Of a DNA stretch of 64,000 nucleotides, positions 7,928 through 20,339 are shown one piece after another. Numbering within the stretch: the first letter of the stretch is position 1; each line of letters opens with the position of its first letter. The notes under the pieces were generated by a model. That model was not told the DNA's origin. It did no database searches and saw only the letters and a program-made list of their open reading frames with translations. The position numbers and the translations under genes are program-made. Source of the stretch: Vibrio coralliilyticus ATCC BAA-450 (GTDB taxonomy: Bacteria; Pseudomonadota; Gammaproteobacteria; Enterobacterales; Vibrionaceae); NCBI RefSeq assembly GCF_000176135.1, contig NZ_ACZN01000016.1, positions 186,001 to 250,000 of the forward strand. The letters are read 5' to 3'.

Positions 7928-8521
7928 TCAAAATGCAGCCAGCAGAAAACGTGGCTCCCCTTCTTTTTTCATATGACTGAGCCGCGCAATCTGAGTGCTG
8001 CCCGTTAAGCTGGTATCAAGCACATACGCACATTGAGTGTTGTTGTCTAGTGGCTCGAAATGCTTGATGTCTTCGCCACTGAAGCTTCCCCATAATCCGA
8101 CCAGCAGCATCACTTCATCTTCAGGTAGTGACTTACGCAAGGTAGCCACTCGTTTGGTGTCATCATAGAGTTTGTTGCGATCTTTCTTTGACGCTAGTTC
8201 GTCCTGGTGAAGAACGTGAAATTCAAACCAAAGGTTTTTCCCCGGCGTTGAAATACGCAGATCCGCTTTTGATGCGTAGCGTTTGTCGCAAGGTTCGACG
8301 GAAGCCGATTTGCTAACAAATTTGAGGTACTCGTCATTATGTCTGTAGGGAGAGGCGAAATGGATATCCTCGATATCTGAAGATTGAGCCAGTGACAGGC
8401 TGAGATCGAGCGTGAGCCAGGAATGTACAAAGGGCTTTGCCTGAGGCATGGCGATGACCTGATTCGCTTTGCTGAAATCGTGCTGACCGGCGAGATGGCT
8501 GAGTAGTGATTGCTGAATCAT
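7928..8521 (-). CDS. Uncharacterised protein, possible PD-(D/E)XK-like fold
   Basis: 197 residues from the ATG at 8521, which has GGAG seven bases upstream; a longer form starting at 8593 lacks a ribosome-binding site. Near residue 85 there is KADLRI, then about ten residues later LWFEFHV, which resembles the D ... E-x-(K/H) arrangement of PD-(D/E)XK nucleases, though the last residue is His rather than Lys. A Lys/Arg/Asp-rich helix follows. This is the last gene of the minus-strand cluster. The resemblance is by eye and could be coincidental; the protein may instead bind nucleic acid without cutting it. Confidence 0.55.
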   Translation of the reverse strand: MIQQSLLSHLAGQHDFSKANQVIAMPQAKPFVHSWLTLDLSLSLAQSSDIEDIHFASPYRHNDEYLKFVSKSASVEPCDKRYASKADLRISTPGKNLWFEFHVLHQDELASKKDRNKLYDDTKRVATLRKSLPEDEVMLLVGLWGSFSGEDIKHFEPLDNNTQCAYVLDTSLTGSTQIARLSHMKKEGEPRFLLAAF

Positions 8522-8623
8522 AAGGTTTCTCCGAAAGAGCGATGCGTTCAGAGTATCAATCGAAGTGGGCAGAAACTCGGGATAAGCCAGCATAGAATAG
8601 GGGATGCTGGCGTTAGGTTAGGG

Positions 8624-9475
8624 TTATGCGTTCTCTAGCCATAGCTGTGCATCATCCAGTTCATGTAGATACACTCTGCTCTGGCTGGCATGGTTAGCAA
8701 GGTTGTAATCGTTCAATAGCTCTGGACGAAAGGCTATGCCCAAAGATAGGCATTGAACTTGCTGAGTGGGAGAAAAATAACTGAGCTGCTCAGACAAAAT
8801 ATCGGAAAGCTCAGGCTCTTCAATTCCCCCTTCAAAGCATGACCACAATGCTTTGATCACCGGATACATAGGTTTGCTTTGTTGCCTTGAATCAGTACTT
8901 TTGGCATAACCCGATTGCCATTGAAAAGTCGTACCAAACAAAAAGCAGCGGATGGTGTGCATGAGCAGCCAGTAATCGTGCTGAACATCCGATCCATCCG
9001 GTTTGGTGGCTCTCATGTACTGGTACAGTGCAGCAACAAACTTGCTGGTGGCGAGGCTATCTGCATTGGTCATTGCCAATAAGATGGCACGATTGATCTT
9101 GCCAGCGTATTTCTCCTCAGGTGTGGGCTGCTTGGGTGGTCGATTGACCTCTCTTGGTTCATGAGAGTAATGGAAGTGACCGGAAATACCGTGTTGTCCG
9201 AGCCTAGAACCTCGTTCATTCAGTGCACCACCATTGAGCCAGTCTACATGACTGAGAGGGTTAATCGGGCGTATCGACATAGGTTTACCAGCTTGTGAGT
9301 GTTGTGACCATTCAGGTAAATCTGATGAGCTTTCACAAGCGGGCGGTTCCTCTTGCACTGGGGAGGAAAGAGCCAGATAAGCCAGTTGGTACGCCAGCCG
9401 TTGGGCGAGGCCGGGTTCTGCTCCGGCCATTAATGCGGCGCTGAAGGCCGCATAATACATTTGGTCTGATCGCAT
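8624..9475 (-). CDS. Uncharacterised cluster protein, 283 residues
   Basis: The start has a very strong GGGAGG site. The N-terminal 35 residues form an alanine-rich amphipathic helix (FSAALMAGAEPGLAQRLAYQ). A long Ser/Pro/Gly-rich low-complexity linker runs to about residue 120, then a helical C-terminal domain contains YWLLMHTIRCFLFG and an acidic segment. There is no signal peptide or clear membrane helix. It lies 21 bases after the receiver-like gene and is surely part of the same operon. No family recognised. Confidence 0.6.
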   Translation of the reverse strand: MRSDQMYYAAFSAALMAGAEPGLAQRLAYQLAYLALSSPVQEEPPACESSSDLPEWSQHSQAGKPMSIRPINPLSHVDWLNGGALNERGSRLGQHGISGHFHYSHEPREVNRPPKQPTPEEKYAGKINRAILLAMTNADSLATSKFVAALYQYMRATKPDGSDVQHDYWLLMHTIRCFLFGTTFQWQSGYAKSTDSRQQSKPMYPVIKALWSCFEGGIEEPELSDILSEQLSYFSPTQQVQCLSLGIAFRPELLNDYNLANHASQSRVYLHELDDAQLWLENA

Positions 9476-9496
9476 TAAGAGTCCTCCCGGTCGGGA

Positions 9497-10204
9497 TTAT
9501 TCAGTGGGCGCGCTAAGGGCTTTCACGTTGCTGTTAAACTGCGGCAGCGTTTCGACAAAGCGGTTGATGACCTGTTCTGCGACGGACTCTTTGACGGAAG
9601 GTTCACTGATGTAGGTATCCACTTCTGAGCGAATATGCCCACCGTTTAACGCATCACGATCTCTTTGGTTGACGATGGCATTCACGGCCTGAGCAAAAGC
9701 GAACCCATCCGTTTTACTATAAATACGATGCTGGCTGCCTGTGTTGCCCGACTCTGGGTAGCGAGGGGCTGCATAAGACACCATGTAAGGCTGGGTGTTC
9801 GGATCGTTACCGATCAGCTCTTCACACGAGAAGAGGACGAAGTCTGTAGAGCGGTAATTATCCATGACCTGATTGCAAATAGGCAGGTCAGCTTCGATGG
9901 CTAAGTTGTAGTCGCAGAAGAAGACATCGACACCTGGGATCAGGCTGGAGATCATAGTATCAAACGCGTTTTGGACGCCTTCAGGCAGTTCATCTTGCTC
10001 TGGAACCTGACTGTAGTTCTGTGATTTCACCGAATAGGAGCTTCGCCAGCGGGCTAGGAGTTGTTTCCCTTTGTGCCCGTCTCGATACTTGTAAGCGACC
10101 TTGTAGCCGCTATCAAAATAATCTTCAACATCAGGCTGGTCAGTCAGGAATGCGAAGGTACGTCCGTCAGAAGCTTCGCAAAGGCGAAATAGTAGTTGTC
10201 TCAT
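9497..10204 (-). CDS. Uncharacterised protein with a receiver-like segment
   Basis: 235 residues; AGGAG six bases before the ATG. The segment GVDVFFCDYNLAIEADLP around residue 95-112 looks like beta-3 of a response-regulator receiver domain, with the Asp of FFCDYNL in the phospho-acceptor position, and DFVLFSCEE follows like beta-4. The N-terminal strand FRLCEASDGRTFAFL and a long helical C-terminus are less typical, so it may be a degenerate receiver (REC-like) domain rather than a working one. No histidine kinase is in the cluster. Overall family unknown. Confidence 0.55.
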   Translation of the reverse strand: MRQLLFRLCEASDGRTFAFLTDQPDVEDYFDSGYKVAYKYRDGHKGKQLLARWRSSYSVKSQNYSQVPEQDELPEGVQNAFDTMISSLIPGVDVFFCDYNLAIEADLPICNQVMDNYRSTDFVLFSCEELIGNDPNTQPYMVSYAAPRYPESGNTGSQHRIYSKTDGFAFAQAVNAIVNQRDRDALNGGHIRSEVDTYISEPSVKESVAEQVINRFVETLPQFNSNVKALSAPTE

Positions 10205-10288
10205 TGGTTTCTCCTGTTGAGTAGTTACCTCCGCAGAATAGGTTTTTCAGGCTATGTATACTTGGTGCAATAGTTCACTCTTTTGGGG

Positions 10289-11074
10289 TTATTGACGATC
10301 CGTTGCACGCATGCAAGAACGCACGCCTGTGAGCCAGCGAAGATTCGGTTGTCGAGATGCACTTTGAGGCTTTGAGTGAACGGAATTCTTCACTGTTTGT
10401 CTTTTATTTTCAGCGTGTTGAAAGTCTGGTTTAGCTTCTGCTGATATTGCAGATTCCTGCTTATGTTCCGATGCGCCATTAGCCACAAACTTAAATTGAT
10501 ACGGGTAACTTGAATGGCCCTGATAGCTTGAAGGCTGAGACCAGTTGATTTTGGTTGTTTGAGTCTTGGCTTTTGGTTTGGAATCGTCTTGTGGTAAAGC
10601 GTTTGGCTCGAGCCTGCGGCGTTCACTACCAGATTTTGGGCGCACGGGCTCGGATGGCTTTTTTAGATGGTCGACAGGTTCTTCTGTATGGTTGGCATCG
10701 TTAGAAACCTCAGCTCCCTCTTCCGAGCTGGCCGTAAACACACTTTTAGGCATGCTGGTTAGGCAGCGCGCCAGATCCTGCACATAGCTTTGATAAGGGT
10801 TAAAGCTAGCGTCAAATTCCGCCAGTTTGCTTTCGGTGTTGGTCGTGCTTGTTACTTCTGCCGTCTCTTGCATGAGTGGTTCTTTTGGTGAAGGTGAATC
10901 TTGGTTAGCCTGGGAAACGGGTGGTGTATTTTCCGATGCTTCTGGCGATGAAATAACGGACTCTTCCTGCACAGTCGCTTCTACCGGTTGAGTTTTGTTA
11001 GCTTTGCGATAGCGGGATTTGAGTCGGTAGCCACGAGGAACCCATACGACTCTGCGGCGTCGATATTTGCCCAT
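10289..11074 (-). CDS. Basic, disordered Ser/Pro/Gln-rich protein
   Basis: 261 residues beginning MGKYRRRRVVWVPRGYR, a strongly basic patch, followed by more than 200 residues rich in Ser, Pro, Glu, Lys and Gln and predicted by eye to be disordered. AGGGGG precedes the ATG. No hydrophobic segment is present, so it is probably cytoplasmic. The basic start could bind nucleic acid, ribosome or acidic lipid head groups. A scaffold or linker role within the cluster is a guess. The 3' end is followed by a gap of 84 bases before the next gene. Confidence 0.55.
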   Translation of the reverse strand: MGKYRRRRVVWVPRGYRLKSRYRKANKTQPVEATVQEESVISSPEASENTPPVSQANQDSPSPKEPLMQETAEVTSTTNTESKLAEFDASFNPYQSYVQDLARCLTSMPKSVFTASSEEGAEVSNDANHTEEPVDHLKKPSEPVRPKSGSERRRLEPNALPQDDSKPKAKTQTTKINWSQPSSYQGHSSYPYQFKFVANGASEHKQESAISAEAKPDFQHAENKRQTVKNSVHSKPQSASRQPNLRWLTGVRSCMRATDRQ

Positions 11075-11122
11075 GCTTCCCCCTTATGAGCAAGATTGGC
11101 GGGAAGCTCCCGCCAGAAACAG

Positions 11123-11422
11123 TTACACCAGCGTATCGACTAGTGTGCTAAAGGTTTTATTGACGATTTTCTGCACTTCGGATTTTGCGCTGATTTGCCA
11201 CGTCAGCATTTCGGCCTCAGCGATTTGCTTTTCACGTAATATCTCTAGCTCAAAATCTTCATTGGTTAAGTCGCCGTTGTTTCTAGCCTCTATCAGCTCT
11301 TGCAAGGTGGCCTTTTGCTTATCCAGTGTGACTGTCAGCGCACTGGTCAGCAGGTTCTTAATTGGTGAGTCTTCAATTTGGCTAGTAATTTGTTCAATGA
11401 TGTTATCTATGCTTTCCGTCAT
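11123..11422 (-). CDS. Small helical uncharacterised protein, 99 residues
   Basis: AAGGAG lies seven bases before the ATG. The sequence is acidic and almost certainly all-helical, with heptad-like spacing of Ile/Leu (NIIEQITSQIEDSPIKNLL). It has no signal peptide. It sits between the lipoprotein gene (20 bases upstream) and the basic disordered protein (48 bases downstream). No family is recognised; a small oligomerising partner is plausible. Confidence 0.55.
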   Translation of the reverse strand: MTESIDNIIEQITSQIEDSPIKNLLTSALTVTLDKQKATLQELIEARNNGDLTNEDFELEILREKQIAEAEMLTWQISAKSEVQKIVNKTFSTLVDTLV

Positions 11423-11442
11423 CTTTCTGCTCCTTGAATGAT

Positions 11443-11865
11443 TTATTGTTTGGCGAGTTCACCACGAATTAACGTATCAATAAGCCGTTTGTACTGATCT
11501 AAGCGACGCTTGATGAGAAAGTCTGACAAGGTTTGCTTTTGCTGGTGGGTTTTCATGTCCTGCTGCCAGAATTGCACCAGTGTTTGAGCCTGCTTTAAGG
11601 TCTCTTGGTTTTGCTCTCGCCTTGCCTGCCTGCGCTCTAATCCACGCACGCTCACATCGATTTTGAGGTACTGTTCAGTGAATCTCGCGTAGAGGCGTTC
11701 GCTTTCCGGCAGCGCTTGCATGCTCAGGTAGAGGTATTCGATATCACGTTCGATACTTTGTGCCTGCTGAACGGTTTGAGGATCGTAGGGAGCCACCAAG
11801 CGCAACGTACAGCCACTCAGTAATATCAAACAGGCGGCGATCCAGCCGAGGTAACGAGTTTTCAT
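11443..11865 (-). CDS. Small lipoprotein with coiled coil
   Basis: 140 residues. The N-terminus is a lipoprotein signal peptide with lipobox LSGC, so the mature protein starts at Cys19 and is attached to a membrane lipid. The rest is Gln/Arg-rich and helical, with long predicted coiled-coil stretches (ERRQARREQNQETLKQ). AAGGA precedes the ATG by six bases. It is the only evident lipoprotein of the cluster and could anchor the envelope components. Family not recognised. Confidence 0.65.
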   Translation of the reverse strand: MKTRYLGWIAACLILLSGCTLRLVAPYDPQTVQQAQSIERDIEYLYLSMQALPESERLYARFTEQYLKIDVSVRGLERRQARREQNQETLKQAQTLVQFWQQDMKTHQQKQTLSDFLIKRRLDQYKRLIDTLIRGELAKQ

Positions 11866-12017
11866 TGTGTGTCCTTATTTTTCGGGTTTCACTCCATGAT
11901 GACTTGGAAAGAGGGTGAGTAGCTCAGGCTAATTGGCTGAATAATTGGGTTATTTGGCCGTGATTATTCCTTGTTGAGTGATAAGTTAAAAGCAGGAGGA
12001 GTCAGCAAGGAAATGCT

Positions 12018-12329
12018 ATGTCGGATTTAATCGATGCGCTTAAACTGGTCAAAAAAGCCTATAAGCCGAAATTGCAAAAACTGAAGATGACGCCAGAGCA
12101 AGTGAAGCAGAAGGTCAAAGTACACCAGAAAGTCACCGGTGTACTTCAAGGAATGGATAAGCTGGAATCACTCCAGAAAGAGTCTCTCGAACTGGTCGCT
12201 AAGTTGGTCAAAACGTTTGTTGAGCAAGCTCCGACGATGGCTAATCAGGCGCTCGCCCCGTTGAAGAAGCCTCAGGAGAAGAGTCAGGCTGACGACGAAT
12301 CCCATCAATCAGACGATCAAGCAAAGTAA
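12018..12329 (+). CDS. Small Lys/Gln-rich protein, convergent with the cluster
   Basis: 103 residues, the only plus-strand gene inside the 7.9-20.1 kb block. A purine-rich AGGAGG-containing tract and AAGGAA precede the ATG. The protein is helical and lysine-rich (ALKLVKKAYKPKLQKLK), with an acidic, disordered C-terminus. Its last 89 bases overlap, in antisense, the 3' end of the membrane-protein gene at 12241-13203. Overlap of two coding 3' ends could couple their expression. A role as an antitoxin-like or regulatory partner is speculative; a spurious frame is possible but the start signals argue against it. Confidence 0.5.
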   Translation: MSDLIDALKLVKKAYKPKLQKLKMTPEQVKQKVKVHQKVTGVLQGMDKLESLQKESLELVAKLVKTFVEQAPTMANQALAPLKKPQEKSQADDESHQSDDQAK

Positions 12330-13203
12330 ATAACACCTCAATGCTATAGCCTGCGATAAAAGCCAGCGCCATCGGAGACAGTGCCATGTCGCCCATTTCC
12401 GGCTTGAGTAACCAGCCGGTTATCATTCCCGCTAAACAGCCTAGTGTGAGGCGCAGTCGATAGCCGACTTCTCTGCTGGCGGTATACGTAAGAGTACGCA
12501 CCTGTTGCAGCAGGCTTCGCAGGACAAAGATAAACGCACCAAGCAGGCCATACATCAGCGGAAGAATGTAGTTTTGTAGCATTTGCAATACCGACTGAGC
12601 GGCGATCAGGTTAGCGGCATATTCAACGGGTGAGTCTTCATTGGCAGTCCTTTCGGCATCCAATGGTATGTTACGTCCACCTAGCCAGATGTGATTCCAG
12701 TTTCGCAGCAACTGGTAATTGGCCTCCATATCTGGGGGCATAGGAGAATTGAGGGCGTCCGTTGACCCCACAGAGGTGAGAAGGTTTTGCGTCAGTGCGT
12801 AGCCAAACAAGTAGTACATCTGCACAATGAGCAGGAAAATCAGGGTTAAAACGGTGTAGCGCCGATACCAGGTGATCACCCTTGAAGCGCCCGGTAATTC
12901 AAGCTTGCCATCTTTAGTGTCGGGCACAACGGCTTTGATGCTCTCGACTGTCACTGGGTACACCTGTTTGGCTAAACGGTCGTAACATTGCAGCAGCAAA
13001 GTTTCATCTTCTACGCTCCAGTGCCGAGTATCAATGCGATATTTGGCGCGATATATTCCCTGGGCAATCTCTGGGTCAATAGTGAGATCACCGTGGCGAG
13101 CAACGTATTGCAGCAACTGAATACCTTCACGGATCAGTTGTTGTAAATCAGACTCAGGGATCGATTCGTGAGTCCGCGATTTTACTAATGAGTCACTCGC
13201 CAA
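12241..13203 (-). CDS. Multi-pass membrane protein of unknown function
   Basis: 320 residues. A cytoplasmic N-terminal region of about 105 residues is followed by a transmembrane helix (VLTLIFLLIVQMYYLFGYAL), a loop of about 90 residues, then three more helices: LPLMYGLLGAFIFVLRSLL, the LTLGCLAGMITGWLL segment and a final one with SPMALAFIAGYSIEVLF. The last block is well conserved in appearance, as seen in a widespread but unnamed proteobacterial membrane family. The short C-terminal tail is disordered and is the part overlapped by the opposite-strand gene. It follows the lamin-tail gene by 16 bases. Possibly a channel or scaffold; no direct evidence. Confidence 0.65.
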   Translation of the reverse strand: MASDSLVKSRTHESIPESDLQQLIREGIQLLQYVARHGDLTIDPEIAQGIYRAKYRIDTRHWSVEDETLLLQCYDRLAKQVYPVTVESIKAVVPDTKDGKLELPGASRVITWYRRYTVLTLIFLLIVQMYYLFGYALTQNLLTSVGSTDALNSPMPPDMEANYQLLRNWNHIWLGGRNIPLDAERTANEDSPVEYAANLIAAQSVLQMLQNYILPLMYGLLGAFIFVLRSLLQQVRTLTYTASREVGYRLRLTLGCLAGMITGWLLKPEMGDMALSPMALAFIAGYSIEVLFTLLDRLIDGIRRQPDSSPEASSTGRAPD

Positions 13204-13219
13204 CGGCTATCTCCTTTGA

Positions 13220-13996
13220 TTAATAGTTGTAACTGGAGACTTCTCTGTCCTGATAATCAATCAGCTTACAGCCTCCACCGTCGTTGTTCCAAAGCGCTGT
13301 GGGGCTGTTAAAGCTGTATTCGTTATCTTCAAGCGACGCTTTGTTGGTAAAAACGCGTAAGGAAGTGAGCGGCGCTAACTGAGTGTCTTCAGGAAACACA
13401 AAGCAATTGTCATTGAGCAGAGCTTCTAAACGCCACTGGCTAAGGTCGACTGTATACTCTGATGTGTTGTGAATCTCGACGTACTCATCGCCTTCGCTGC
13501 GAAACTCTTTACCGTCATAATTGACGTGGCTGATGATGGCATGAGGGTGAGCTTTATCGCCATAAATGAAGCTTGAAACCGTCTGGCCGTGGTGGTTGAC
13601 CAAAGTGCCAAGGTCGCCTCGGTTATTCCACACTGGCTGATTGGAACCAAAACTGTGCTCCGACTTACCTGATGTATCAATTTTGATGTACTCAAACGGC
13701 GACAGGAAGGTATGTTCTGGGAAGATATATTGCTGATCTGGCGAACCTGCCTGTATATGCCAACCACTAATGTCTGCAGTCATATCGCCGCGATTTCGAA
13801 TCGTGATCGACTCATCCAGAGGTGAGGTGGTCCCTTTAAAGTCTAGAGATGAAATCTCTACCTGACTCAGCACTTGAAGCTGGTTAAGTTGTTGCCAACA
13901 CTCGTCCATCTCCTCTTTAGATAGCTTTTCTGGTAACGCTATTTGGTTGAGGATCTTAAGCACTTCCTGCTGAATGTATTGGGTATTCACTGACAC
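13220..13996 (-). CDS. Leaderless protein with two lamin-tail domains (LTD)
   Basis: 258 residues from a GTG start with AAGGAG six bases upstream. After a helical N-terminus (about 1-40) there are two lamin-tail-like immunoglobulin folds, roughly 45-140 and 150-258. Diagnostic LTD features are DEYVEIHNTSEYTVDLSQW in the second copy, the FP-turn strands (YIFPEHTFLSP, CFVFPEDTQLAP), the N-N-x-G-D/G motif (VWNNRGDLG, LWNNDGGG) and the closing V-S-S-Y strand. Bacterial LTD proteins are usually exported; this one has no signal peptide, so it probably works inside the cell or is carried out by another route. LTDs bind protein or DNA. Confidence 0.8.
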   Translation of the reverse strand: MSVNTQYIQQEVLKILNQIALPEKLSKEEMDECWQQLNQLQVLSQVEISSLDFKGTTSPLDESITIRNRGDMTADISGWHIQAGSPDQQYIFPEHTFLSPFEYIKIDTSGKSEHSFGSNQPVWNNRGDLGTLVNHHGQTVSSFIYGDKAHPHAIISHVNYDGKEFRSEGDEYVEIHNTSEYTVDLSQWRLEALLNDNCFVFPEDTQLAPLTSLRVFTNKASLEDNEYSFNSPTALWNNDGGGCKLIDYQDREVSSYNY

Positions 13997-14100: not shown

Positions 14101-16179
14101 TTATTTTTCGATAAACAGCAGGGTAATAATCAGCGAAAGCATGAGGAGTAGTGGCCAGTACCACTGTTTAACCCTCAGCCCTTGCTGATATTCCAACGCG
14201 TGAATTTTCATCTCCGTGGTGTACGCCAGAGCGCCAATGGAGGTGAAAATAATCTGCAGGTAAGCGAGGAAATAGAAGTACTCGATAAAGATAACACCCT
14301 GAGCATTCAGCTCCTCACGAAGTGCGACATGCGCAATGACCAAGATGAAAAATAACGAGGCACAATATTGGAGAACGGTGGCAGTATTAAAGCCCCACAG
14401 CGCTTGCTGCTTTTCGTCTTTGGTCCAAAGAAGCAACATACAATAAGTAAGAAAGCTCACGACCAGCAGCGGCATGATATGGCTTATTAAAGGTCCTGTA
14501 ATACTCCTTTGTATGACCATGTTGTACTTCAAATTGACGGTTTGATGGCCATTGTAGAGCTTGTCAGTTTGATAACTAAAGTAACTTTGTAATAGTTTCC
14601 AACTGCCAAAATCATGTTCAGCCATTCTGATACCGGGTAAGTCCTCGGGCCGCATGGAAGGGTAGCTGTCAAACTCGGGTACCAGCATTAGGTAGCCTGA
14701 GTCTGGCCTAGGAATCATTGTCAGCTCAATGACTTCACGATCGAACGGAAAAGACTCGTAATCAAAAGGCTGTTTGATGAGAGCGACAAACTGCCACAGC
14801 TGGAATCCTTCGCTCTCCCGAATCAGAGACCAAGAGGTATTCAGGGAATTATTTATGTGCAGTGGTGGCTCATCGGTTGCCTGATCTGAGGTGATGATTT
14901 TACCGACAATACTGACCTGATCCGCCTCGACCAAATCAAGTGACTCAACGGTTAAGTTTATTTGATGAATGTGCTCCGAAGAGGCTTTTTTACCCGGTGG
15001 ATATTGGGCTTGCCAAGCGAGGTACGCGCTTTCTTCATTGACCAGCAGAGCTTCGCCTTTGCTCAGAGGCTTGGGTGCTAAAGCCTGATACCAAAGCAGG
15101 AGCAGGTATGACAATAGGCACAGTGATAATACAGTAAACAGGCGTCTTAATTTGGCGCGCGACGCATCGGGAAAACGCAGCGAAGCGACAAAAATGATTA
15201 AACCAGCAATACTGAGAAACCAAATCAGGTCGTGATACCCAGCATGAGACGTGGTTGATGTCCTGAGCTCATCTGCATCAATAATGAGTCCAAGCTGAGC
15301 GTCGAGTCCTTCGATATTACTCAGTACCATCCACTCCTCACGACCAGTGACCGGATGAGAAAAAGTGGATAGATCCCCCTTAGTCAGCTGCTCCGAGATA
15401 GAAGCAAGCAGCGGGTACTCGGCAGGGTCTAAGCTGTATATGTCTTTGCCAAGAACCGACTTGTTCGGGTAGGCCAATATCTGACCTGTGCGTGAAATCA
15501 GCATGCCAAAGCCTTGGCTACCAAGATCTAGATTCAAGACTTGCTTGGTCAGGCTATTGAGCGAGAAGTTGAGGAAGACGATACCGTCAAAGCCATTGTT
15601 CATTTGCCCGTCATAATTGGACTCAAAGGGTACGATGAATTCAGCCAGCCAGGTATTGGCCGTGGTGCCGAAATACGGTTCCATCCACATACTGCCTTTT
15701 GACATTGGCTGATGAAACCAAAAAGTCCGTGGACCGTTGTTCATCCTGTCTGGCAAGGTGTAGTCGTAACGTTCCGAAATCTGCTGGCTTTGGCGATTGT
15801 CTCCGTTCTTCTGAAAGTAGGGTGAGTACAAAGGATTAGCAGGATCCGAATAACGATTTTTACGAAAGGCCACACCGCCTCGGTGCGCCCCTTGGGTTGT
15901 CATCACTGACTGAGTGATCAAGTGGCGCAATTCTTTATCATCACGTTGCTTTTGGTTGATTGCGGCCGCTAACAGTTCCGTTTTCTGCGATAACTCCGCC
16001 AAGCGCTTGTTGATGGCCCGAGTAGCCGCTTGGCTTTGTTCGACCAAGTGATGGCGGATATCAGTATCAATATCTGCGTGTAACTGGTAAAGCGTAATGG
16101 TGATAAAGGCCGCAACAGACCAGATAAGCGCTGCAATCCAGCGCAAATGGTAATACTGAAGTTCGGAAGGTTTGATCAT
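14101..16179 (-). CDS. Cache-domain protein fused to a pentameric ligand-gated ion channel-like module
   Basis: 692 residues. An N-terminal membrane helix (about 13-32) is followed by an extracytoplasmic Cache-type sensor (35-305; e.g. GFGMLISRTGQILAYP) and two membrane helices (317-336, 346-364). Residues 385-558 look like the ligand-binding beta-sandwich of Cys-loop receptors: FPFDREVIELTM at 477-488 matches the family FPFD signature, and Trp450 and Trp462 flank it. Then come exactly four helices (560-584, 598-620, 630-655, 673-690), the first entered through RSITGPLISHIMP as in channel M1 segments. The cysteine pair of eukaryotic receptors is absent, as in bacterial homologues. Its start overlaps the upstream permease by four bases. 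Likely an inner-membrane ion channel gated by a small molecule; the channel identity is inferred from motifs. Confidence 0.75.
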   Translation of the reverse strand: MIKPSELQYYHLRWIAALIWSVAAFITITLYQLHADIDTDIRHHLVEQSQAATRAINKRLAELSQKTELLAAAINQKQRDDKELRHLITQSVMTTQGAHRGGVAFRKNRYSDPANPLYSPYFQKNGDNRQSQQISERYDYTLPDRMNNGPRTFWFHQPMSKGSMWMEPYFGTTANTWLAEFIVPFESNYDGQMNNGFDGIVFLNFSLNSLTKQVLNLDLGSQGFGMLISRTGQILAYPNKSVLGKDIYSLDPAEYPLLASISEQLTKGDLSTFSHPVTGREEWMVLSNIEGLDAQLGLIIDADELRTSTTSHAGYHDLIWFLSIAGLIIFVASLRFPDASRAKLRRLFTVLSLCLLSYLLLLWYQALAPKPLSKGEALLVNEESAYLAWQAQYPPGKKASSEHIHQINLTVESLDLVEADQVSIVGKIITSDQATDEPPLHINNSLNTSWSLIRESEGFQLWQFVALIKQPFDYESFPFDREVIELTMIPRPDSGYLMLVPEFDSYPSMRPEDLPGIRMAEHDFGSWKLLQSYFSYQTDKLYNGHQTVNLKYNMVIQRSITGPLISHIMPLLVVSFLTYCMLLLWTKDEKQQALWGFNTATVLQYCASLFFILVIAHVALREELNAQGVIFIEYFYFLAYLQIIFTSIGALAYTTEMKIHALEYQQGLRVKQWYWPLLLMLSLIITLLFIEK

Positions 16180-16799
16180 GATTCGTCCCTCGCTTCAATA
16201 TGCCGATTTTGGCGCTTTTCGGTGAGCGTGATAAAGGTCTTCAAAAAGCTCTGACACAAAGCGCCGCTGACGATGAAAAAGCAAGCCACCATGGTGTAAA
16301 TCGGCAATATCGCATCGGCTTGGCCAGAAGACGCAATGTATGAGTTTGCCGTTGCCAGTATTTCATCCACACCGATGGCTGATGCTGTGGTGGAGGCCAT
16401 TAAGATAACTAGAAAGAACTGATTCACTGCTGATAGCGAGAAGGACTTACCGCTGGTACGTTTTTGTGTGGCCAAATCACAGCTGTAACCCATGACAGGG
16501 ATCGCCAGAGCGATAATGGCTTTACCTAGTGCGGGTACGTACATTTCAAAGCCCATCATTTCCCAGCGTGAGGGGACGATCAGCGCAAGATAAAACAGCA
16601 TCACGAAACTGGGGACATTACAAAGTAAAGACTGAGCCCCTTTCGCCAGCCACTTGATTGGTGTTTGAGTGTGATTGGTTCCGCGACTCAGCAGAGCTCC
16701 GACAGGAAAACCTATCGTCATCGCTGATATAGCAATAAGAATATTGAGGCTGAAGGAGTAGGTAAGCGACAGCCATAAAGTCATGTCCGATAAAATCAT
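16176..16799 (-). CDS. ABC-type permease-like membrane protein
   Basis: 207 residues with about five transmembrane helices, beginning LSLTYSFSLNILIAISAMTIG and resembling the polar amino-acid permease family (HisM/GlnP type). The EAA loop is not canonical. It overlaps the binding-protein/permease fusion upstream and the channel-like gene downstream by four bases each (ATGA), which means translational coupling. A second permease is encoded in the fused upstream gene, so the two could form a heterodimer. No ATPase gene is anywhere in the cluster, so ATP-driven transport would need a partner from elsewhere, or the pair no longer transports. Confidence 0.7.
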   Translation of the reverse strand: MILSDMTLWLSLTYSFSLNILIAISAMTIGFPVGALLSRGTNHTQTPIKWLAKGAQSLLCNVPSFVMLFYLALIVPSRWEMMGFEMYVPALGKAIIALAIPVMGYSCDLATQKRTSGKSFSLSAVNQFFLVILMASTTASAIGVDEILATANSYIASSGQADAILPIYTMVACFFIVSGALCQSFLKTFITLTEKRQNRHIEARDES

Positions 16800-18352
16800 T
16801 GCAACGCTCCTTTGTTGTTGATGTCGGGCGATGTTTGTCTTTTCAGATAATCGGAATAGCGGGTGAACAGCTTGCCGACGAGATAGGCAAACAGCAGTAC
16901 TTCAAGGTAGTAAAACAGAGCCAGAAGTGTCATGAGCAGAACGGGGTAGCCTGAACTGGAGACTAAGGTGTTGACCACCAGAACCGCATTGGGCGAAGCA
17001 ATAACACTCGCCATACCGGCAGCTTTAGCGAGATTGACCAAGTTAGCTTTGACCCCAGCACTGTGATGAAGATAGCGCTGAGTTAAGGAAAGCGGTGACG
17101 TAACATCTGCGGTGACTAGGTTGTTGATACCAGAGGCGGTGTACAGCGCCAGTACCAGCCAGGCAACACTGGCTCCGCTTAATAGCCAGTGCTGACCGTG
17201 CTCGTTCCAGAAAGACAGCGCACCGAAGTAAATCAGGTAGAGCATCAAAATGGGAGGAATCGAACTTTGTAGATGAGTGAGAAACGCGATGGGTTTTGCG
17301 ACCCAGTGTTTGGAACTCGTCGTCATGTGAGTAAAGCCTAACGCCAGCGCGATGGCGGTTAGGATTGAAATCACAGTAAACAGAGCAGTGTGAAGCATCG
17401 ATTGAATAAGTCGCTCTGTATCGAACTGGTCAAAAGGCCAAAACTGTTGGTCCCCTTGTTGCCCTAGTGATATGACGGTATCAAAGCAGAGCTTTTTCTT
17501 GCTGACCTTGTCGCTATCTGCCTGACACACGGCATCGCCATTCTCATCCATTGAGTTCCAGTTTTTGTGCTGCTGAGCAAGGTAATCCTGTTCTGGCAGC
17601 TGCCATTGTTGGGCGAGACTCTTCAGACGACCATCTCTGATGCGGCTCGCGATAAAACGAGATAACCAGTTTGCTAAAGACTGCGATGCCGTATCTTTGC
17701 GAGTCACCATCGACCAGTGGATTGGCATAATGGTCTCTACATCAACGCTGTAATCACTCCACTCTTTCTGATTCGACAAGTGGAACAGAATGCCGCTGTC
17801 GTAGGCCCATGCCTGACATTTGTTGGTCAATAGCGCCAGTTTTGAATCTCTATTACTCATCAGAATGATTGGTTTGATGCGATAGTTCTGTACCAGCGAT
17901 TTATTGAAATATGCCCCAGCGGTCAGGCAGACCGGCTTGCCGATTAAGTCAGTCCATTTTTCGACGCTGTTCGATTTGTGAGTCAGGGCGGTGACACCAC
18001 TGCGAAAATAGTGAGGCGTGATCATACGGACACGCTGTCGACGTTGCATGGAGTCACCGACCGTTGCAATCAACATGTCTACTTGCCCTTCGTTAAGCTT
18101 TTGAAAACGGTTGGCACTGGTGACGGTTTTGAATTCCACTTCTGCATTGAGCGCATGGCCGATCATTTGCGCCAAATCGGGTTCAAAACCAGCAGGTTGA
18201 TTGTTGCTGTCCAGCATTCCCCAAGGTGGGTAATCGGCTTTAACGCCGATAACAATCCGTCCAGATTGTTTAATTTTGCTCAGCAGATCTTGCGCTTGAA
18301 CGCTGGGTAACAATAGGCAACAACTTATAAGGAGGGTAAAGAAACGAATCAT
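16796..18352 (-). CDS. Periplasmic solute-binding protein fused to a permease domain
   Basis: 518 residues. A signal peptide (1-20, ending SVQA) leads into a family-3 solute-binding domain (about 22-255), with the typical start GRIVIGVKADYPPWGMLD and GFEPDLAQMIG. After a linker with paired cysteines (VCQADSDKVSKKKLC) comes a permease region of about five helices (317-500). Family-3 binding proteins take up amino acids and related compounds or serve as sensors. Fusion to the permease is known from glutamine-type systems. Four-base overlaps tie it to the methyltransferase and the second permease. The missing ATPase suggests sensing rather than uptake, an inference. Confidence 0.8.
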   Translation of the reverse strand: MIRFFTLLISCCLLLPSVQAQDLLSKIKQSGRIVIGVKADYPPWGMLDSNNQPAGFEPDLAQMIGHALNAEVEFKTVTSANRFQKLNEGQVDMLIATVGDSMQRRQRVRMITPHYFRSGVTALTHKSNSVEKWTDLIGKPVCLTAGAYFNKSLVQNYRIKPIILMSNRDSKLALLTNKCQAWAYDSGILFHLSNQKEWSDYSVDVETIMPIHWSMVTRKDTASQSLANWLSRFIASRIRDGRLKSLAQQWQLPEQDYLAQQHKNWNSMDENGDAVCQADSDKVSKKKLCFDTVISLGQQGDQQFWPFDQFDTERLIQSMLHTALFTVISILTAIALALGFTHMTTSSKHWVAKPIAFLTHLQSSIPPILMLYLIYFGALSFWNEHGQHWLLSGASVAWLVLALYTASGINNLVTADVTSPLSLTQRYLHHSAGVKANLVNLAKAAGMASVIASPNAVLVVNTLVSSSGYPVLLMTLLALFYYLEVLLFAYLVGKLFTRYSDYLKRQTSPDINNKGALQ

Positions 18353-19134
18353 GCACGCCTCCTTGCGACCACCAGTAGGCCGTAACCCAGCGAAGCGGGT
18401 AAAAGATTACACAGTAGGTTATCTAAAAAGGCCATGGCGGAGTTCTGAATGACAAAACGCTCTGGAAAAATGCTTTCTGCAGTGACTTTTTCGATGTCAA
18501 ACCCCGCTTCAATCAGCTCTGCTCTGATCTCGTTTACAGTGTAAAGATGATAAAAAAGAGGGATTTTTCGGCCTGATTGAAAGCGTTGGTACTGAATATC
18601 TCCGGGCAAGTTCTGTTGATTTCTTTGTCGCCATTGCAGTGTGAGAAAACGCCGTCGTCGATTGGGCACGGATAAGATCAGCGACCCATCGGGTTTCATG
18701 TGTTTGTGAAACCATTTCAGTAGCTTAGCGCGTTCTTTCTGTTCTCGGATATGGCTCATGACACCGAAAAGAAGCATGCCTAGCTGGAACTTCTCATCTC
18801 GGTCTTCAACGTGTTGATGAAGCTGATTTTGGTCACTGAACCAGTCGACGCGCTCAGAGAATTGTTGTGTTGTTTGCTTCGCTTGTTGGACGGCGATTTC
18901 ACTGATATCGAAGCCATAGAGGTGCAAGTTAGTCTGTTTGAGTATCGGATAGCTATAGCGGCCGTTTCCGCACCCATAGTCCAGTGCTAATGAGTCCTGA
19001 GCGAGAAATTGCGCGTGCTGAAAGAGCGTGTTGAGAACTCGGATATTGGCTTTTGGATAGCGAGAGGTATACAGGCCGATGCGATAATAATCGTCGTAGG
19101 ATTGGGCGATAGTTGTAGATTGGACGTTGTTCAT
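18349..19134 (-). CDS. Class I SAM-dependent methyltransferase
   Basis: 261 residues from the ATG at 19134, which has a near-perfect AAAGGAG seven bases upstream; a longer form to 19236 would overlap the muramidase gene and has no site. Motif I is ALDYGCGNGRYSYPIL (about residues 35-50), followed by the LYGFDISEIAVQ acidic strand 2 and a motif IV-like strand. This is a Rossmann-fold methyltransferase of the UbiE/Methyltransf type. The acceptor is unknown. The presence of bases overlapping the next start suggests it is made with the binding protein; it might modify a peptidoglycan or small-molecule ligand of this system, which is speculative. Confidence 0.8.
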   Translation of the reverse strand: MNNVQSTTIAQSYDDYYRIGLYTSRYPKANIRVLNTLFQHAQFLAQDSLALDYGCGNGRYSYPILKQTNLHLYGFDISEIAVQQAKQTTQQFSERVDWFSDQNQLHQHVEDRDEKFQLGMLLFGVMSHIREQKERAKLLKWFHKHMKPDGSLILSVPNRRRRFLTLQWRQRNQQNLPGDIQYQRFQSGRKIPLFYHLYTVNEIRAELIEAGFDIEKVTAESIFPERFVIQNSAMAFLDNLLCNLLPASLGYGLLVVARRRA

Positions 19135-19192
19135 GAATAGACTCCTTTCTTCGCCTGAATGAATGCTGCGCAGGTCGCCCTGCGCAAGCCGT

Positions 19193-20083
19193 TTAAGCTG
19201 AGTGAGTCTGGTAGGCGGACTCCAGTCTTTCGTCATAGCGGTTTTCAGCGTAGCCAGGGCCGTTGTAGTAACGGGCGAAGGTCGGCCAGTCGAGTGCTTG
19301 AATTGCCTCGTGCAGTTTTGAGTTTGATTTGATGAAATTCACAAAAGCCATCAGGTGGTGACGCTCAGCAAAGAACATGTCGCGAACGAAGGTTTCGACA
19401 TCGTCATAACCCGCAGCCTGATGGTTAAAGCCCATGATTTGGTAACGGCCGAAGGAAGCAGATTTCAGAGCGGCGGTTCTATCCAAGTCGATAGCTTGTT
19501 TCAGGCGGTCATACTCTTTTTCACCACCTACATAGAGTGAGCGATCCCATTTTGGGGAAGAAATATTAGGGTGTGAGTCATCAAATTGATGGCCACTGTA
19601 TTTGGAGAACTGGTGCGCTTCGAACAAGATGCAAGGCGCGCCAGACTCAAAGAAACCACTGCCTGATGATTCAACATCTGAGACGGCTTTAATCGCGGCA
19701 ACTTCACAGCCAAGGGAGTCAGCTGCATCATTGTAGTCATCGTCAGTCAGTCCTTTGATAGGTTCAATCGCTGGCAAGAATAACGAGCTCAGCGCACTTT
19801 GACCTGCGCTCAGTTCTTTGTTGAGTGTGCGGTGGCTTTTACCATTAGCATCGATTCGGCTATCAGGATTATGAAAACCCAGAATAGTTTTCTGCATAGT
19901 GGCGATTGCCTGACATGTTGGCGATTGGCCAAGCTCTGAGCTGATGATGCCATCTTCTTTCAGTGGTGTGCTCAAGCCAATTTTGTCGCTCAATTGATTA
20001 AGGGCTTTTTGCACGTTGAGCACATCATCAGGTGTGTTGTCCGCGCCAATTCCAACCGACGAGGATAGGGTGAGTTCTTTCAT
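19193..20083 (-). CDS. N-acetylmuramidase family lysozyme (formerly DUF3380)
   Basis: 296 residues from the ATG at 20083 (GGAG site); an ATG four codons earlier lacks one. Residues 1-95 resemble a peptidoglycan-binding helical domain (DDVLNVQKALNQL). Residues 105-296 carry the N-acetylmuramidase signature: LGCEVAAIKAVSDVESSGSG with candidate catalytic Glu138, then CILFEAHQFSK and FGRYQIMGFNHQAAG. The enzyme cleaves MurNAc-GlcNAc bonds in peptidoglycan. There is no signal peptide, as in phage endolysins and type VI effectors, so it needs a release route. It is the first gene of the coupled cluster, with no phage structural genes nearby. Confidence 0.85.
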   Translation of the reverse strand: MKELTLSSSVGIGADNTPDDVLNVQKALNQLSDKIGLSTPLKEDGIISSELGQSPTCQAIATMQKTILGFHNPDSRIDANGKSHRTLNKELSAGQSALSSLFLPAIEPIKGLTDDDYNDAADSLGCEVAAIKAVSDVESSGSGFFESGAPCILFEAHQFSKYSGHQFDDSHPNISSPKWDRSLYVGGEKEYDRLKQAIDLDRTAALKSASFGRYQIMGFNHQAAGYDDVETFVRDMFFAERHHLMAFVNFIKSNSKLHEAIQALDWPTFARYYNGPGYAENRYDERLESAYQTHSA

Positions 20084-20339
20084 GTTTGACTCCATGTATT
20101 CTGGTTTGATTGATCCCTACAAACGCTACTGGAATCGAGGTGTGACTAATTGGGCAGAGTCAGGGAATTTTCGGCGCGACCGATGAACAAAGGGTTTAAG
20201 AAGGAAAAGTTAAGAATTCGTCAGAATTAGATCTCAGAGTGAAGTTGTCGATTTGGATCTCAAATATGGACACATAATGGTGCTATGTTTGTATGAAATT
20301 TAACCAGTAAAATCCACCAAGATGAACAAAGGGGTTGTT

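Follow-up and report, generated by a model that had tools for sequence, protein, structure and literature searches.

The locus described here raises the question of whether a single gene of Vibrio coralliilyticus ATCC BAA-450 encodes a membrane channel that carries a chemoreceptor-type sensor in the same chain, and with which partners such a protein would work. The gene lies in a stretch of 64,000 nucleotides (contig NZ_ACZN01000016.1, positions 186,001 to 250,000), referred to here as the window, whose numbering is used throughout. A preliminary description of positions 14101-16179, made from the letters of the DNA, had read the product as a Cache-like sensor followed by a module resembling pentameric ligand-gated channels (pLGICs). 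The gene and the parts of its product were delimited as follows.

14101..16179, minus strand: Cache-pLGIC fusion gene, 692 aa, ATG start (open reading frame list, Pfam, model, structure match)
16081..16146, minus strand: TM1, residues 12-33 (hydropathy; model helix 4-76)
15250..16083, minus strand: dCache sensor domain, residues 33-310 (Pfam; structural alignment with Mlp24, 6ios)
15163..15243, minus strand: TM2, residues 313-339 (hydropathy; model helix 314-334)
15073..15150, minus strand: TM3, residues 344-369 (hydropathy; model helix 340-367)
14506..14994, minus strand: pLGIC-like beta-sandwich domain, residues 396-558 (profile, model, structure match, joint alignment)
14740..14751, minus strand: Pro-loop FPFD, residues 477-480 (joint alignment, motif count)
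14431..14499, minus strand: M1, residues 561-583, with conserved P570 (model, joint alignment)
14308..14385, minus strand: M2, presumed pore helix, residues 599-624 (model; H617 in 21 of 22 rows, R621 in 22 of 22)
14215..14289, minus strand: M3, residues 631-655 (model; E633 and Y640 invariant in 22 family rows)
14107..14178, minus strand: M4, residues 668-691, with conserved P676 (model, joint alignment)

The layout given in the preliminary description was borne out, and in detail it reads TM1, dCache, TM2, TM3, a beta-rich domain with FPFD at residues 477-480 and four helices. Hydropathy analysis of the 692-residue protein placed helices at 12-33, 313-339 and 344-369, with four more hydrophobic segments starting from residue 559. 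An AlphaFold2 model of the whole single chain, built on a 22-row alignment (mean pLDDT 78.3, pTM 0.69), placed the C-terminal helices at 561-583, 599-624, 631-655 and 668-691, with two short additional helices at 589-595 and 660-666. The number of helices in the hydropathy profile and the model suggests that the beta domain and the Cache domain lie on the same side of the membrane. The only cysteines of the chain are at positions 354, 580 and 606, and the beta domain contains none.

Our results establish that the C-terminal module has the fold of pLGICs and is homologous to them. Model residues 396-690 superimposed on GLIC (6zgd_A) with Z 17.8 and an rmsd of 3.0 over 270 aligned residues, and residues 402-691 matched ELIC5 with Z 17.1, so that the structural match to pentameric channels proposed as a test for residues 380-692 was found, with support from sequence as well. 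A Foldseek search with the whole model yielded 848 matches at E<=0.001 for both halves together, and GLIC, GlyR, GABA-A, ELIC and DeCLIC appeared alongside Cache domains among the best 50. When the channel half was searched against the PDB as a single sequence, GLIC was reached at E 0.51 with the whole chain and at 0.89 with the half alone; Pfam gave nothing convincing for residues 380-692 of the single sequence, and NCBIfam gave nothing useful for the gene, its best match being a chance hit to gspJ (0.017). Relatives were aligned as 22 full proteins and as 20 C-terminal modules (C-modules), the latter serving as a profile. This profile matched 75 distinct PDB sequences at E<=10, and the 60 of these 75 that were listed were all GLIC or GLIC chimeras. 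Among those 60, two matches fell at E<=0.001, both of them GLIC chimeras with animal channels, the best being a GLIC-glycine-receptor chimera (3.9e-5), and the others, plain GLIC chains included, lay between E 0.0064 and 0.062. Comparison of the family with an alignment of 6 canonical bacterial pLGICs by hhalign gave a probability of 96% (E 4.3e-9, 183 columns). When 14 family rows were aligned jointly with 5 rows of canonical bacterial pLGICs, P478, W527, R558, P570 and P676 were invariant; of these, P478 is the Pro-loop proline, R558 the pre-M1 arginine, P570 the M1 proline and P676 the M4 proline. The Pro-loop pattern [YF]Px[DE] was present in 34 of 35 family rows, with E at its last position in 10 of the 34. 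The pLGIC assignment of the preliminary description was thus confirmed for fold and homology by the GLIC match, the family profile, hhalign and the shared diagnostic residues.

The family departs from canonical channels in several respects. None of the 22 members was matched by a Pfam channel model at E<=0.1; the same library recognized two canonical bacterial members as Neur_chan_LBD at 5.3e-23 and 2.1e-17. Censuses of pLGICs built on those models have therefore likely missed the family. In the joint alignment, the W-x-P ligand-loop region of canonical members, which contributes to the orthosteric aromatic box, is gapped in the family, and the stretch between M1 and M2 is longer than the canonical one in most family rows. 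M2 is very hydrophobic, and near its end stand a near-invariant histidine (21/22) and an invariant arginine (22/22), a pair that sets the family apart from the canonical rows. An equation of H617 with the known pore histidine of GLIC was dropped, MAFFT and HMMER disagreeing on the register of M2. Two further Pfam hits were set aside: matches to DUF4131 (6/22 members, best 4.1e-4), which we attribute to chance hydrophobicity, and matches to GPR158_179_EC (5/22 members, best 3.3e-4), which presumably reflect a Cache-like ectodomain.

The N-terminal half has the features of a dCache sensor according to Pfam, hydropathy, the model and the structure match: a double PAS-like fold with a long N-terminal helix, set between two membrane helices. 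Pfam matched dCache_1 at residues 41-269 (E 6.8e-9; 36 bits, under the 45-bit cut-off) and MCP-like_PDC_1 at residues 86-188 (E 3e-6; 28 bits, cut-off 27). Model residues 33-310 aligned with the ligand-binding domain of Mlp24 (6ios), a chemoreceptor, with Z 16.9. The dCache_1AA amino-acid signature is incomplete: W154 and F155 are present, the aspartate is replaced by N204, and the arginine is out of register with that of PctA. We make no claim that the ligand is an amino acid. Exactly two hydrophobic helices separate Cache from the Pro-loop in 25 of 26 long, Cache-bearing rows; the remaining one (L065), whose 5' end is cut, has the same helix pair at residues 94 and 121.

The channel gene is the last of a series of minus-strand genes, in the order muramidase, methyltransferase, SBP_bac_3/permease-like protein, permease-like protein and Cache-channel. 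The genes preceding it are the following.

16176..16799, minus strand: permease-like membrane protein, 207 aa, overlapping the channel gene by 4 bases; no Pfam ABC-permease match
16796..18352, minus strand: SBP_bac_3 solute-binding protein fused to a permease-like membrane domain, 518 aa (Pfam)
18349..19236, minus strand: methyltransferase-domain protein (Pfam), kept in the cassette
19193..20095, minus strand: N-acetylmuramidase (Pfam), in 4 of 7 related loci and absent from three Enterovibrio loci

Each of the three junctions among the last four genes is a 4-base overlap. In the tree of C-modules the window gene falls within a clade of eight (support 100/100), and the order methyltransferase, SBP/permease, permease-like protein, channel is kept in all seven other loci of this clade that were examined, from the same genus and from Enterovibrio (L001, L003-L005, L059, L060 and L075; L002 was left out as near-identical). 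Highly similar copies of the channel occur in Vibrio sp. RE88 (99% identity) and in V. neptunius (94%). Compared with V. neptunius, a crude dN/dS of 0.033 for the whole gene and 0.02 for the channel module indicates purifying selection; in the comparison with L075, synonymous sites were saturated.

The partners resemble an ABC importer in part. The solute-binding part of the 518-aa protein is clear (Pfam, 5.2e-27), and the permease-like parts of both proteins, which are conserved among orthologues, match the first three helices of amino-acid permeases below the cut-off (1.7e-4 and 2e-6). BPD_transp_1 (PF00528) was matched by neither protein at E<=1. From the coordinates of the ArtQ and three-TM matches, about 50 residues appear to be missing from the 207-aa protein at the position where the EAA loop is expected. 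A Pfam scan of 20 window ORFs between 2922 and 27165, operon genes included and small ORFs outside its range, revealed no ABC ATPase. Neither BPD_transp_1 with its EAA loop nor an ATPase, by which an importer would be recognized, was found in the two proteins and the scanned ORFs, and the 207-aa and 518-aa proteins look like an importer scaffold retired from transport. A structure model of the SBP/permease partner had a mean pLDDT of 51.5, too low for use. In two distant members from the same genus (L061 and L062), the channel gene is directly followed by one for an SBP_bac_3 protein fused to Gly_transporter, a TRIC-type domain (L062:10456-12033 and L061:7968-9146, the latter apparently split). 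A membrane-tethered binding protein thus accompanies the channel on two unrelated scaffolds, and this gene neighbourhood suggests that the binding protein is the partner of the channel.

We propose, with a probability of roughly 0.7, that the product of the gene is a single subunit of a pentameric, ligand-opened inner-membrane pLGIC and that its chain also contains a full chemoreceptor-type sensor (TM1-dCache-TM2). The most likely form is a homopentameric, ligand-controlled channel with Cache input that works with the tethered binding protein. Five subunits would assemble as in GLIC. A small periplasmic ligand would bind to dCache, or would arrive through the binding protein of the operon docked on its permease-like partner, and would move TM2/TM3 and the beta-sandwich domain so that the M2-lined pore opens; the resulting ion flux would be the signal. 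The permease-like partners have probably lost the ability to pump, since the ATPase-coupling loop seems to be missing and no ABC ATPase was found among the scanned neighbours. The analysis demonstrates the order of the domains, the fold of both halves, the homology of the C-terminal module to pLGICs and the conservation of the gene together with its operon partners. The pentamer, conduction, the direction of the signal, the class of ligand and the loss of transport by the partners are what we infer beyond these, and the same applies to the words "channel" and "two ligand sensors" with which the preliminary description had characterized 14101-16179.

Other explanations have to be weighed against this. 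That the C-terminal half is an unrelated beta-rich domain with four helices, bearing FPFD by chance, would fit the failure of Pfam to recognize the region from a single sequence, but it is contradicted by the fold match, the profile match, hhalign and the five shared invariant residues, and we regard it as very improbable. A more substantial objection accepts the fold and denies the pore: the pentamer would be a non-conducting receptor that relays a ligand signal mechanically to partner membrane proteins, these being the permease-like pair or, in distant relatives, parts of an injection system. The very hydrophobic M2, the conserved histidine and arginine near its end, unlike the canonical rows, and the strict operon coupling with membrane partners that do not look like transporters speak for such a receptor. 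The Pro-loop, pre-M1 arginine and M1 proline are nevertheless conserved, and these are gating residues in pLGICs; moreover, hydrophobic gates are normal in closed pLGIC pores. We consider the non-conducting receptor unlikely.

The partners could also be read at face value, the Cache-channel being a regulatory subunit of a working amino-acid-type importer made up of the SBP/permease proteins and an ATPase encoded elsewhere. The clear SBP part and the sub-threshold match to a three-TM segment of amino-acid permeases favour this reading, but the missing BPD_transp_1 match in both proteins, the apparent gap at the EAA-loop position of the 207-aa protein and the lack of an ABC ATPase among the scanned ORFs make it improbable. 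A ligand-opened channel with a Cache sensor in each subunit therefore remains our preferred reading.

The preliminary description had called such a fusion inside a muramidase/permease operon unusual. The idea of the fusion is not new: the text of Tasneem et al. (2004; PMC549065) reports Cache/MCP-N domains fused to pLGICs of bacteria, notes pLGIC genes that stand next to PBP-II genes, and proposes chemotactic receptors. Among the papers listed in searches of the open-licence PMC literature, no other report of a Cache domain with a pentameric channel in bacteria was recognized. The 2004 fusions share with the window protein the position of Cache N-terminal to a ligand domain and four-TM core, and a PBP-II near a pLGIC is likewise common to that paper and this operon. 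According to the text of that paper, the extra domains lie between signal peptide and core, whereas here two TM helices part the sensor from the core, and PBP-II is encoded beside the pLGIC there but is fused to a membrane domain here. The Cache-pLGIC fusion itself having been known since 2004, three features are new here: the family is divergent, with no Pfam channel model matching any of 22 members; a transmembrane hairpin is placed between the sensor and the channel; and the operon is translationally coupled and includes an SBP whose attached permease-like domain apparently has no ATPase-coupling loop.

GLIC, the proton-gated channel of Gloeobacter, has the fold of residues 396-690, and the pattern of Pro-loop, pre-M1 arginine and M1 proline is common to canonical bacterial members and the window protein, but the PDB chains of GLIC that were matched, each of about 310-320 residues, lack a sensor domain and differ in the sequence of the pore helix and in the ligand-loop region. 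DeCLIC is likewise a bacterial pLGIC with an additional periplasmic N-terminal part, and is described as the only pLGIC with an extra N-terminal domain whose structure had been solved by 2022; that part consists of two jelly-roll lobes, in place of the Cache domain found here (PMC9897478). According to Jaiteh et al. (2016; PMC4795631), no pLGIC from a unicellular organism had a known biological role, and domain architectures were still to be studied. A channel translationally coupled to a binding protein in culturable vibrios, together with relatives in injection-system loci, offers concrete partners and phenotypes to test.

The family comes in two forms, a long one with Cache and a short one of about 390 aa without it. 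In a tree of 35 C-modules, whose root is not fixed and several of whose rows are long-branched, a single branch (support 98/97) parts long from short forms, so that one gain or loss of the sensor suffices. A search with the single module found the family in 12 of 296 genomes of the same taxonomic family and in 10 of 369 genomes of the class, the own genome being counted in both. A profile search of the phylum gave matches in 28 of 398 genomes, own genome again counted; 7 were strong matches over the full module, and the other 21 were weak (1.6e-13 to 2.4e-4) and, as far as examined, mostly long chains of PBP-I type. Canonical members with PF02931 occurred in 7 of 274 class genomes, and a search with this model found no canonical pLGIC in the genome of V. 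coralliilyticus ATCC BAA-450. As to a phage origin, a short member (L050) had no match in 50,697 phage records.

The PBP-I-fused pLGICs among the weak phylum matches (L083-L105) form a second group that is easily missed, their channel part being below the Pfam cut-off or without match in the 6 that were scanned. They share with the Cache-channels a chain of about 700 aa and a periplasmic sensor followed by a Pro-loop core. They differ in the fold of the sensor, which is Peripla_BP_6 in 6 of 6 scanned, and 18 of 20 long ORFs have no helix between sensor and Pro-loop, by a coarse hydropathy rule that misses one of the four C-terminal helices.

In other gammaproteobacteria, family genes sit in loci of extracellular contractile injection systems (eCIS). 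The recurring order, with variations and omissions, is the tape-measure gene (CIS_TMP), AAA ATPase, a 518-783 aa protein, TPR protein, Cache-channel, a 366-aa protein, methyltransferase, short channel and eCIS_core. Family genes and the tape-measure gene occur together in seven loci (L067, L069, L071, L072, L073, L159 and L161), and three contig fragments (L162-L164) hold other parts of the cassette with long and/or short channel genes. Among 27 family loci inspected, 12 lacked both the injection-system genes and the 366-aa neighbour; two (L160, L169) had the 366-aa neighbour alone, two (L066, L171) an eCIS_core protein without tape-measure or AAA gene, one (L170) repeats L067, and the other 10 held parts of the cassette.

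Counted from the other side, CIS_TMP was detected in 7 of 274 class genomes, and five of these seven carry a family gene at a distance of 5.1-9.4 kb from it, as against 10 of 369 class genomes with a family gene overall. These five cases are not independent because all come from three families (f97, f154 and f107). One of the other two (G414) has no family match and the other (G593) was not among the matches of the class search. Of 22 chosen genomes that carry the family, 9 have a CIS tape-measure gene, which in 4 of them is far off or on another contig (G258, G276, G666 at 184 kb, and G804). The genome of the window has no CIS_TMP, and the eCIS link therefore describes relatives and not the window gene. 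Gene neighbourhood suggests such a link for the distant members, and no literature joining eCIS with pLGICs was found in open-licence PMC.

A broader proposal, which we offer tentatively and with more doubt than confidence, is that this is a previously unrecognized pLGIC family acting as an exchangeable sensory channel. In vibrios it would be slaved to a membrane-tethered SBP on a retired ABC-permease or TRIC-type scaffold; in other gammaproteobacteria, long Cache-channels, at several loci with a short sensor-less paralogue, would be built into contractile-injection-system loci. If this were true, ion flux at eCIS loci could serve as the cue for making, arming or releasing the machine.

Two further observations concern the surroundings and the reach of the family. 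Beside the operon, window positions 7928-13996 encode a protein with a Lamin Tail Domain, matched in two stretches, and several conserved proteins that Pfam does not recognize; PHROGs gave nothing for the five neighbours of no assigned function between 7928 and 13203, and such a gene set also lies in a congener (L062:13789-19620), where the adjoining Cache-channel operon is very different. A relative of the channel module, annotated as hypothetical (27% identity over 66% of the query), is encoded on plasmid pREC1 of the cyanobacterium Acaryochloris marina (L106:11617-13077), a plasmid typed as conjugative.
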